The notes under the pieces: model-generated | Databases searched by the model: none | What the model saw: only the letters and a program-made list of their open reading frames with translations | What the model was told of the DNA's origin: nothing | Part shown: piece by piece, positions 1,828 through 17,572 of the stretch | How positions within the stretch are numbered: position 1 is the stretch's first letter | Layout of the letters: every line of letters begins with the position of its first letter | Made by a program: the position numbers and the translations under genes | IMG/VR virus record: IMGVR_UViG_3300028559_000191 | Span: 1 to 23,838 of that record | Length of the DNA stretch: 23,838 bases | From: a virus | Reading direction: 5' to 3' (one strand)

Positions 1828-2208
1828 TTAGCTTTTGTCCTCGTCTAGCATTTTCTTAATGGAGCCATATTTGAGACCGTAGGCGTATTCCACCTCCTCA
1901 TACCCGTAGAAGTCCACGTCAAGTGCGGCATCGGCCTCAATAAGGGTATCAATTGCCTTCTGAAGACCGCACCGCATGGTACCGCGCACAATGTTTACGG
2001 CGGTGACAAATTGCTCCATGGCCAGAGCTTGTTCTTGGGCTTCGCGCTCCATGTTGCGCTCCAGAGCGCCCTCGAGGTAATCCCATTCCTCATTGAATGC
2101 CTCTCGCGAAGCAAAAACAACGTTCCGCGGCCGTGAGCCGTACACGTCCTTATACAGGTCCGAGTAAATGGCGGCGCGGTCATCGGTGATTTGAGCGAGG
2201 GTAAGCAT
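1828..2208 (-). CDS. Hypothetical phage protein (IYSDLYKDVYGSRPR type)
   Basis: A 126-residue protein of unknown function. The N-terminal stretch with S-D-L-Y-K-D-V-Y-G-S-R-P-R is a motif I recognise, from memory, in small hypothetical proteins of many phages and some bacteria, with no established role. The rest is strongly helical and acidic. I chose ATG 2208, which has AGGA with an 8-base spacer; the frame could also open at GTG 2224-2226, which has a poorer context close to the promoter. It has its own early promoter (2238-2265) and is followed by about 185 bases with no convincing gene before the thyX operon promoter. Confidence 0.7.
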   Translation of the reverse strand: MLTLAQITDDRAAIYSDLYKDVYGSRPRNVVFASREAFNEEWDYLEGALERNMEREAQEQALAMEQFVTAVNIVRGTMRCGLQKAIDTLIEADAALDVDFYGYEEVEYAYGLKYGSIKKMLDEDKS

Positions 2209-2237
2209 TTCGGTATTCCTTTTCACTTCCTATTATC

Positions 2238-2265
2238 ATAATAACAGGACCAAGATTAAAGTCAA
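2238..2265 (-). promoter_or_regulatory. Early sigma70-type promoter P2
   Basis: Minus-strand TTGACT (2260-2265), 16-base spacer, TATTAT (2238-2243), immediately followed by GATAATAGGA. It lies directly after the regA stop codon and drives the gene at 1828-2208. Apart from four bases in the spacer and one in the -10, the segment is the same as promoter P1. Confidence 0.75.
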
Positions 2266-2270
2266 ACGAA

Positions 2271-2675
2271 TTATCCAGAAATAATGCGCCTACCGATATT
2301 ATATTTTGCCACAAGCTCCCAGTCACCCTTTTCCTTGTGCGGGAGAATCTTGATTAGGTTCAGAGGCAACCTTGGTTCTTTGATCTTATCAATGCCCACA
2401 ACTTTGATAAGGCCCCAGTCGGCGAGCAATGAGATGATGGTGTTCCGGCGCCCTATGTCGTCGCTTGTCATGTTGCTAGGCTTGCCATCTAGAGCAAATA
2501 GCTCCTTGAAGTGAACAATGTAATAAAGGCCCTGCTTGTGCAGGATATGGCATGACTGATAGATAGTCTTTGTTTTTGAAGAAGCCACACCGATCCTAGT
2601 AAGAGTTTCTCTTACCTTAAGAAAGTCGTCTTGTTCACCAAGTCGGATTTCCACTAGCCTGTCAACAATGTTCAT
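2271..2675 (-). CDS. regA: RegA translational repressor
   Basis: A 134-residue homologue of T4 RegA, an RNA-binding protein that represses translation of early mRNAs by covering their start regions (in T4 including those of gp45, gp44 and regA itself). Highly diagnostic blocks are present: D-F-L-K-V-R-E-T-L-T-R-I-G near the N-terminus, Y-Q-S-C-H-I-L-H-K-Q-G and Y-Y-I-V-H-F-K-E-L in the middle, D-W-G-L-I and the C-terminal K-Y-N-I-G. It is slightly longer than T4 RegA (122 residues), with a short C-terminal addition. It is the last gene of the gp45-44-62-regA operon, in the same order as T4, and its ATG overlaps the gp62 stop (ATGA). RegA target sites cannot be assigned with confidence because the consensus is loose. 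Confidence 0.95.
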   Translation of the reverse strand: MNIVDRLVEIRLGEQDDFLKVRETLTRIGVASSKTKTIYQSCHILHKQGLYYIVHFKELFALDGKPSNMTSDDIGRRNTIISLLADWGLIKVVGIDKIKEPRLPLNLIKILPHKEKGDWELVAKYNIGRRIISG

Positions 2676-3055
2676 TTTACGCCACCCTTATTGTTCTTTT
2701 TCTTAATAGCTTCGATCTGGTCGAGCGTAAGAATAGAAAGAGCGGTGAGTCCTTTGCGGCGATCACAACCATAATATTCACATATAAGAGCTAGATCAGC
2801 AGATTTATTCTTCTGACCCCACTTCTCATTACGCTTCCTGGGTCTTATGCTATTTATAAGATAGTCATACGCCATCCTATTGTCTAGGTGGTGGTGCATA
2901 TTGACAAAGTTGGATTGCATGACTGTATCAGGGTAGTACGATAGACCTCGGTTGATTACCCAGGCGGGATATTGCTTTTCTGCAATATCATCCACCATCA
3001 GGTCTTTCTTGTTGCCGTTAATGCTAGCCAGCCAGGGCCATGGCTCGGTGGTCAC
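2672..3055 (-). CDS. 62: Clamp loader small subunit gp62
   Basis: A 127-residue homologue of T4 gp62, the non-ATPase subunit that joins four gp44 subunits to load the gp45 sliding clamp. Recognition rests on position between gp44 and regA and on family residues such as W-V-I-N-R-G-L-S-Y-Y-P-D, M-H-H-H-L-D, and P-R-K-R-N-E-K-W. It is much shorter than T4 gp62 (187 residues), as in environmental T4 relatives, so the C-terminal domain is reduced. The start is GTG, overlapping the gp44 stop (GTGA), which implies translational coupling that would tie its amount to gp44. A perfect TATAAATA lies within the gene at 2851-2858 but is probably coincidental. Confidence 0.88.
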   Translation of the reverse strand: MTTEPWPWLASINGNKKDLMVDDIAEKQYPAWVINRGLSYYPDTVMQSNFVNMHHHLDNRMAYDYLINSIRPRKRNEKWGQKNKSADLALICEYYGCDRRKGLTALSILTLDQIEAIKKKNNKGGVK

Positions 3056-16419: not shown

Positions 16420-16854
16420 CTATCCGCCTACTTGGAATCTCGCCCAGTCGATGGCGTTCTTAATCAAGAAGCCTCTAGTATTTAGCGAGCGGATAATCGA
16501 GTCCAGAAGTGCAATCTTTTCCTGCTGAATGCCGATCCGCAGAGTCTGCTTAACCACTTCTTCATCTACGTCGATGTAGTTATTGGCATCGGCTTTAATT
16601 ATTCTACCAATTGGAGGAAGTTTCCAACCAAGTGCTTCAGTTTCATCCGAAGGTCCCTGAGTAAAAAACTCATACTTGTCTAGCCTTAGTTTCTTGAGCT
16701 CTGCCTCATATGCTCTAAGCTTTAGCTTTTCTTCCGTGAAGATACTAAAGTACTTGTGGTGTAGCTTTGGTAGTTTGAGTGCTTCCTCGCCTAGTTCATT
16801 TCTATTGATCTCAACATCAACCTTCCAGAGGTCAAAGATATCTTGCAGCTTCAT
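16420..16854 (-). CDS. uvsY: Recombination mediator UvsY
   Basis: A 144-residue homologue of T4 UvsY (137 residues), the mediator that loads the UvsX recombinase onto single-stranded DNA coated with gp32. Recognition is based on size, position beside uvsW, and the family pattern: L-P-K-L-H-H-K-Y-F, coiled region E-E-K-L-K-L-R-A-Y-E-A-E-L-K-K-L, Y-I-D-V-D-E-E-V and the C-terminal L-N-T-R-G-F-L-I-K-N-A-I-D-W. It is preceded by an unusual ~148-base leader with a folded element close to the ribosome binding site (AAAGAG, 6 bases before the ATG), suggesting post-transcriptional control. It ends in TAG. Confidence 0.9.
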   Translation of the reverse strand: MKLQDIFDLWKVDVEINRNELGEEALKLPKLHHKYFSIFTEEKLKLRAYEAELKKLRLDKYEFFTQGPSDETEALGWKLPPIGRIIKADANNYIDVDEEVVKQTLRIGIQQEKIALLDSIIRSLNTRGFLIKNAIDWARFQVGG

Positions 16855-17002
16855 GCTATACTCTTTCTATGTCCAACCAGGCATTAACCCAACCTGATAA
16901 ACTTTACCGAACCCGCTTCGCGTTGGAAGACAAGCTTCCAAACAAAAATGATTTATGATGTGTTTGATTGTAATGAAACCTATGTTCATTTGTCAGGGTC
17001 AC
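16855..17002 (-). promoter_or_regulatory. Structured leader RNA upstream of uvsY
   Basis: About 148 bases between the predicted transcription start (near 17002) and the uvsY ATG. On the transcribed strand there is a perfect 7-bp hairpin TTGGAAG-CTTGT-CTTCCAA (16923-16941), then CGC-GAA-GCG, then CAGG...CCTG (about 16877-16896) enclosing GGTTAATG. The CCAAC of the first hairpin can alternatively pair with GTTGG near 16890 or 16875, so a switch between two folds is possible. One frame reads V-W-K-L-V-F-Q-R-E-A-G-S-V-K-F-I-R-L-G, stop, C-L-V-G-H-R-K. I recall this string from many short hypothetical proteins, which suggests a widespread conserved DNA/RNA element. The stop and lack of a start argue against a protein here. 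Confidence 0.55.
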
Positions 17003-17008
17003 TAACCT

Positions 17009-17037
17009 ATTATAATCACGTACTAGTTCAATGTCAA
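17009..17037 (-). promoter_or_regulatory. Consensus sigma70-type promoter P7 (uvsY operon)
   Basis: Minus-strand TTGACA (17032-17037), 17-base spacer, TATAAT (17009-17014): a perfect match to the sigma70 consensus. It directly follows the terminator-like hairpin after the tail-tube-family gene and would drive uvsY, uvsW and the LSm-like gene. Confidence 0.85.
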
Positions 17038-17038
17038 C

Positions 17039-17070
17039 AAAAAAGTGCGCCCATTACAACTTTGTAATGG
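17039..17070 (-). terminator. Possible terminator after tail-tube-family gene
   Basis: The inverted repeat CCATTACAA-CT-TTGTAATGG (17051-17070) contains the gene's TAA stop and on the transcribed strand is followed by GCGCAC and a run of six T. The stem is AT-rich and the T-run is 6 bases away, so it is a weaker candidate than the one at 17611. It separates the late head module from the uvsY promoter. Confidence 0.45.
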
Positions 17071-17572
17071 TATATTTTCTATACTTGAATGTAGCGCTAG
17101 ATGATACGTAATCAATCCCCTGATCCATAGTATTTAGGTCAAACGAACTAAGAGAGATGGGAAATGCATCCTCAAACTTGAATTCGATGTTAGGTTTCAT
17201 GGCGCTATTTAGGATCGTCACAGTAATATCAGAAGTGATTAAATCTGTATCACCGTTTTCTTTATTTGCCAGAGCCTTATACTGCTCGAACTTATCTGGG
17301 AATCCAAGAGCTTCGAGCCAGTTGTGAATCTCTAGCCAGTTTGAGAGATTTTCGTCGAGCTTAAACGCGATCTGAAGATCCTCGTAGTCGATATGATCCC
17401 CAGGGATAGGAATTTTTACAAATGGGGTGGGCTGTGTAGTAGATGGCATGGAAATACCTGGAATGGTAACATTCTGTAGAAAAAACGAAGTAGTTGGCGC
17501 TCTTGTAAGCACCATCTTGAAACCTACCGGAGATAGAAAATTGACATTATCGGGTTGTGTATTCAAGCTCAT
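17054..17572 (-). CDS. Tail tube family protein (gp19/gp54-like)
   Basis: A 172-residue structural protein with the pattern of the T4 gp19 tail-tube family: N-F-L-S-P-V-G-F-K-M-V-L-T-R-A-P, then V-T-I-P-G-I-S-M, I-P-G-D-H-I-D-Y-E-D-L-Q-I-A-F-K-L-D-E-N-L, and W-L-E-A-L-G-F-P-D. The size is close to T4 gp19 (163). In T4, gp19 forms the inner tube of the contractile tail and gp54 initiates it. Its position between gp23 and uvsY is where environmental T4-type phages usually carry a tail completion gene (gp3), so it may be a tail terminator or a second tube-like protein rather than the main tube. AAGGA is 6 bases before the ATG, with a late promoter 27 bases upstream. Confidence 0.7.
   Translation of the reverse strand: MSLNTQPDNVNFLSPVGFKMVLTRAPTTSFFLQNVTIPGISMPSTTQPTPFVKIPIPGDHIDYEDLQIAFKLDENLSNWLEIHNWLEALGFPDKFEQYKALANKENGDTDLITSDITVTILNSAMKPNIEFKFEDAFPISLSSFDLNTMDQGIDYVSSSATFKYRKYTITKL

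Follow-up and report, generated by a model that had tools for sequence, protein, structure and literature searches.

A non-coding cassette of promoter, easily melted spacer and hairpin element at uvsY and two further sites in a phage judged T4-like, tentatively read as a replication origin

The uvsY locus

The window examined here, the whole stretch of 23,838 nucleotides from one IMG/VR virus record, carries on its minus strand a tail tube gene and, after a gap of 199 bp, the gene for the recombination mediator UvsY (Table 1). A sequence-only reading of this DNA had described a perfect promoter before uvsY, a leader of about 148 bases and a 7-bp hairpin within it, and on these points it holds. 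The downstream gene is uvsY by its PHROG match, and the promoter, TTGACA-17-TATAAT (minus strand, 17037-17009), agrees with the sigma-70 consensus at 12 of 12 positions. Transcription is predicted to start near 17002, the leader runs for about 148 nt to the uvsY ATG at 16854, and the hairpin TTGGAAG-CTTGT-CTTCCAA is present near its middle, at the upstream edge of an 81-bp element that follows an AT-rich spacer.

Taken alone, this hairpin is near chance level: when the leader is shuffled with its dinucleotides preserved, 6% of the shuffles contain a perfect 7-bp hairpin, and so do 5% of the 148-nt windows in the contigs. In addition, neither the whole leader (z=+0.57) nor its 84-nt core (z=-0.4) folds into anything stabler than shuffled sequence, no T-tract adjoins hairpin 1, and no site resembling an intrinsic terminator was found on either strand of the window copy. 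The cassette is counted as real because it is repeated, and not because of the hairpin alone.

Table 1. Coordinates of the uvsY locus and of the three cassette copies (window positions unless a contig and locus are named)
Feature	Position	Strand	Remarks
uvsY, recombination mediator	16420..16854	-	PHROG 231, E 4e-32; downstream gene at copy B only
Tail tube gene, upstream neighbour	17054..17572	-	PHROG 45
Promoter upstream block (TTTTGTTGACATTGAACTAG + flank)	17023..17046	-	includes -35 TTGACA, 17032-17037; common to the three cassette copies
-10 box TATAAT	17009..17014	-	17-nt spacing from -35
AT-rich spacer	16942..17008	-	67 nt in copy B; low duplex stability
81-bp conserved hairpin element	16863..16943	-	95% identity to copy C, 82% to copy A
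Hairpin 1, TTGGAAG-CTTGT-CTTCCAA, 7 bp	16923..16941	-	invariant in three copies
Mini-hairpin CGC-GAA-GCG	16914..16922	-	invariant
Variable patch 1, predicted unpaired linker	16905..16912	-	from comparison of three copies
Hairpin 3 (GTTTATCAG...CTGGTTGGAC)	16871..16902	-	variable loop 16887-16893; from comparison of three copies
Copy A	G003, L017:948-1026, promoter to 1112	-	spacer 47-48 nt
Copy C	G001, L012:9451-9531, promoter to 9615	-	spacer 47-48 nt

Copies of the cassette and their distribution

An exact 20-mer scan of IMG/VR returned three contigs besides the window: G002, which is 99.98% identical to the window over 23.8 kb; G003, which shares 98.8% identity with G002 over the first 20 kb of the latter; and G001, whose first 136 bases match the end of G002 at 98.5%. 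Judging from these near-identical overlaps, the four IMG/VR contigs tile about 93 kb of one phage population and do not come from different phages. The phage is judged T4-like from its UvsY, UvsW-type helicase, tail tube and baseplate families and from the likeness of its gp23, which is 65.8% identical to gp23 of Stenotrophomonas phage DLP6.

The leader in the window is one copy (B) of a non-coding cassette of promoter, easily melted spacer and hairpin element that is found at two further sites (A and C), with inter-copy distances of about 35.6 and 37.3 kb. All copies have the same layout, in which a promoter block is followed by an AT-rich spacer of about 47-67 nt and then by the 81-bp element, and all match the sigma-70 consensus at 12 of 12 positions. 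The promoter upstream block of copy B is identical to those of A and C at 20 of 20 positions (BLAST), and copies A and C are 90% identical over about 180 bp, promoter included. The spacer of B shows no detectable homology to that of A and C, 381 of 1000 shuffles aligning equally well. That the promoter and the element (95% identical between B and C) have been kept while the spacers of the two share no detectable homology implies, as judged from sequence, that the promoter and element are constrained and the spacer is free.

The predicted consensus structure of the three elements comprises hairpin 1 (7 bp), the CGC-GAA-GCG mini-hairpin and hairpin 3. Variation is found in 2 of 42 paired and 11 of 29 unpaired columns (Fisher p=0.001, for a structure derived from the same three sequences), and the differences fall in two clusters, possibly two events. 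Compensatory changes were seen at 0 of 21 pairs, a count of very low power with three similar sequences. The proposal of a structured nucleic-acid element stands in so far as the cassette is non-coding, repeated and probably structured, with a strong promoter of its own and with variation that follows predicted loops rather than codons. Since no compensatory base change separates the two, either RNA or single-stranded DNA could be the active form of the element. The mutually exclusive pairings of CCAAC with either of two GTTGG are likewise real in the window sequence, though copy A has lost one of the GTTGG partners; a TCCAAC/GTTGGA pairing is retained in all copies. A role as a general operator was rejected, as the hairpin 1 palindrome has no further occurrence within 2 mismatches, and so was a G-quadruplex (GGTTGG...GGTTGG), the motif not being retained in copy A.

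The element had been supposed to be widespread; among the sequences searched it is confined to one phage population. Exact scans of 2.9 million IMG/VR viral contigs with four patterns recovered the same phage only, BLASTN against 50,697 phage and 72,556 plasmid records gave no relevant match, and Rfam had no match for the leader region, either above the gathering score or at E<=10. A tRNA/tmRNA search returned nothing relevant to the element, the element was not found in 80 uvsY relatives, and a search for relatives of copy A gave no other phage with the query used. Run over about 1 Mb from related loci, both nhmmer and a covariance model detected the three copies only (covariance-model scores of 104-112 bits; next best E 0.07).

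A promoter-block 18-mer occurs in four more IMG/VR contigs, in one shared coding segment reading VDIELDT, putatively from an aminotransferase. A scan of 84,980 bacterial genomes with an 18-mer gave 16 isolated matches. Neither set was accepted as copies of the cassette: both were taken as chance, the first lying in a coding segment and none of the second extending along the element. The best partial bacterial match to the element, GATGTCTTCCAACGCGAAGCGGGCTAATAATGG at L183:3439-3475 in a Pyrinomonadaceae contig, has an nhmmer value of 1.8e-5, reached among sequences already selected for carrying the 18-mer, and is probably due to chance.

Another family of repeats in the same phage consists of at least 14 near-identical copies of the early-promoter/leader unit TTGACTTTAATTAGAGTCCTGTTACTATGATAATAGGAAGTGAAAAGGA..ATG. 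These include positions 1-63 and 2206-2268 (minus) of the window and further sites in G001 and G002 (L012, L013, L016). All share the strand of the genes and lie past 41.7 kb in G002, and most of the copies read stand directly before an ATG.

Orientation of the copies and the sites in relatives

Only copy B in the window is followed by a sense gene. Copies A and C are sited between co-directional genes with their promoters facing backwards (antisense), that of A running in reverse into a baseplate-wedge gene (PHROG 438) at its 3' end and that of C likewise into a PHROG 455 gene; the cassette is, therefore, not a gene leader by nature. Homologues are thus not always upstream of uvsY, only copy B of the three being so placed, and the idea of a general uvsY-leader regulator falls, as two of three copies precede no sense gene and no uvsY relative carries the element.

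Site C is empty in relatives L100, L103 and L104, in which the stop codon abuts the next start codon. In uvsY relatives L020-L022 (65-68% identity), the element is absent, a sigma-70-like promoter closely follows the tail tube gene, and the leader is about 35 nt long; in isolate relatives, the uvsY leader measures 15 nt (Stenotrophomonas DLP6) and 3 nt (Sinorhizobium phiM12). Because uvsY relatives retain the promoter without the element, the promoter of copy B is probably the ancestral uvsY promoter, and copies A and C are probably duplicates of the uvsY promoter-element unit, presumably copied outward from there.

Perfect antisense sigma-70 promoters were also seen just downstream of the PHROG 455 gene at L112:1431, L129:4391, L133:4373 and L143:4112 (minus). 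Their leaders differ from the cassette and are related among themselves, two of them having the leader ACGAGGGGTCAG, and a hairpin that resembles a terminator by eye lies just upstream on the same strand. Such loci, 503 kb in all, contain eight perfect antisense promoters, of which five follow PHROG 455, in about two independent lineages only.

Candidate functions and known systems

Our best guess is that the cassette is a transcription-activated replication origin like T4 oriF and oriG, a reading held with modest confidence because its support is circumstantial. Host RNA polymerase would start at the cassette promoter, its transcript would remain paired within the melted spacer as an R-loop, and this transcript would prime leading-strand synthesis. 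The hairpin element would then perhaps form a structured primer end, or a signal for single-strand loading or processing. In T4, oriF consists of the uvsY promoter and an AT-rich unwinding element, about 100 bp in all, at which an R-loop formed by the transcript primes replication; oriG shares this layout but little of the sequence, and the unwinding elements are interchangeable (PMC3016281).

Several features speak for such an origin, including promoters at A and C that serve no obvious gene, the presence of three copies in about 93 kb, and the lack of an insert at site C in relatives. The spacers of all three copies rank in the lowest 0.2-0.9% of duplex stability (100-bp windows across about 93 kb, with B at 0.9%), and copy C overlaps the least stable 100 bp of all; many other promoters in the contigs melt equally easily. 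Low stability in the B and A/C spacers without common sequence would be expected if only meltability matters. In addition, the best change point in fourfold-site GC skew falls between gene centres at 25.7 and 26.7 kb, adjoining B (26.96 kb), a position next to B that was reached in 23 of 1000 gene permutations and that coincides with the border between late structural and replication genes and with the highly expressed gp23; no skew shift is seen at A and C. In T4, shifts in compositional skew are seen at oriE, oriF and oriG. Counting against the reading, T4 origins need no conserved 81-bp element, and the promoter here is not of the MotA type. The position of such an origin would not be conserved, as uvsY relatives are without the element and isolate relatives have almost no uvsY leader. 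A stronger version, in which a uvsY-promoter origin cassette was duplicated to roughly evenly spaced sites as a portable, sequence-defined origin, is rather doubtful.

Perhaps, instead, the cassette is a family of small-RNA genes, each a promoter with a structured RNA of about 150 nt acting in trans or on the host, and the uvsY site holds an RNA unit captured as, or left in, the leader; we regard this as possible if somewhat doubtful. All copies have their own strong promoter, the conserved block would be the 3' part of the predicted transcript, variation keeps to loops and not stems (2/42 vs 11/29 columns, p=0.001), and two copies are unlinked to a downstream sense gene. However, there are no compensatory changes, folding is no stabler than in shuffles, the window copy has no intrinsic terminator on either strand, Rfam holds no match, and no phage mRNA makes a convincing target (best real candidate z about -3.4 in 399 tests). 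Trans targets among phage mRNAs were rejected, the pairings being either self-antisense or weak. For all three elements, the best pairing candidate was the translation start of a short gene at G002:40959-41342 (about window 2672-3055, minus), with a weak predicted pairing of about -34 to -37 kcal/mol (z -2.7 to -3.4). If true, the small-RNA reading would reveal a new non-coding RNA encoded by a phage and equipped with its own promoter, and under either this or the origin reading the uvsY leader here would be a copied non-coding module and not a gene-specific switch.

We consider it unlikely that the cassette is a mobile promoter/stem-loop unit of the PeSL kind, spread by recombination between copies and supplying mainly a promoter or recombination homology, with the hairpin as a by-product or weak attenuator. 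Cassettes of promoter and stem-loop are reported for T4-type phages (cited in PMC4503421), comparison with L100, L103 and L104 shows site C as a clean insertion, and the site of C is occupied by an antisense sigma-70 promoter in another phage lineage. Yet two of three promoters face away from genes and so supply none, the conserved stretch of 81 bp is long, follows the promoter and lacks a T-tract, and the apparent early promoters of this phage belong to the other repeat family, in sense orientation before genes.

The uvsY-specific switch first proposed, whether attenuator or protein-binding leader, is very unlikely: the mutually exclusive pairings do end near the uvsY ribosome binding site in the window, and the TCCAAC/GTTGGA pairing persists in all copies, but the element occurs at two sites without a following sense gene and in no uvsY relative, and copy A lacks one GTTGG partner. 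A short coding sequence is scarcely credible, for although a frame LEACLPTRSG..VYQ..LMPGW of the same length is open through all three elements, the frames upstream differ (A from C by a 1-base indel, B by its spacer), the changes within it are mostly non-synonymous and clustered in loops, and it has no Pfam, PHROG or tblastn relative. The frame quoted from the sequence alone does stop inside the element in all copies, and it is not common to the copies as an open frame, being closed by a TAG just upstream in copy A; the tiny protein said to recur in many genomes is not supported here, with no Pfam or PHROG match and no relevant tblastn match in phages or plasmids. Some probability beyond these five readings is left for other causes.

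Among known systems, halovirus HF2 offers a general likeness, as the account in PMC8707807 describes intergenic repeats with promoter motifs in a tailed virus; however, the virus and sequence are unrelated, and promoter activity of the repeats was assayed there with a reporter gene placed downstream. PeSL (promoter early stem-loop) elements of T4-like phages, as cited in PMC4503421, are closer, being dispersed intergenic units of an early-type promoter and a stem-loop. Here, in contrast, the promoters of A and C point away from their flanking genes, so that an early promoter driving an adjacent gene is absent at these sites and only B precedes a sense gene, and a conserved 81-bp block without a terminator T-tract lies downstream of the promoter, with no terminator-like site in the window copy.

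The origin reading draws on T4 oriF, or ori(uvsY), and oriG, or ori(34), in which a promoter is likewise followed by an AT-rich, easily melted region within about 100 bp (PMC3016281). Copy B sits exactly at the uvsY promoter, as oriF does, and T4 too has several origins per genome. The T4 origins use MotA middle promoters and have no known conserved 81-bp hairpin block, whereas the cassette described here has a sigma-70 consensus promoter and is a candidate origin only. No local sequence motif is common to the T4 origins, and the definition of an origin in T4-like phages is unsettled (PMC3016281); a conserved cassette repeated at uvsY and two other sites would offer a concrete sequence for testing T4-like origins. 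If the portable origin were true, it would give T4-type replication a repeated, recognisable origin sequence, unlike the motif-less origins of T4 itself.
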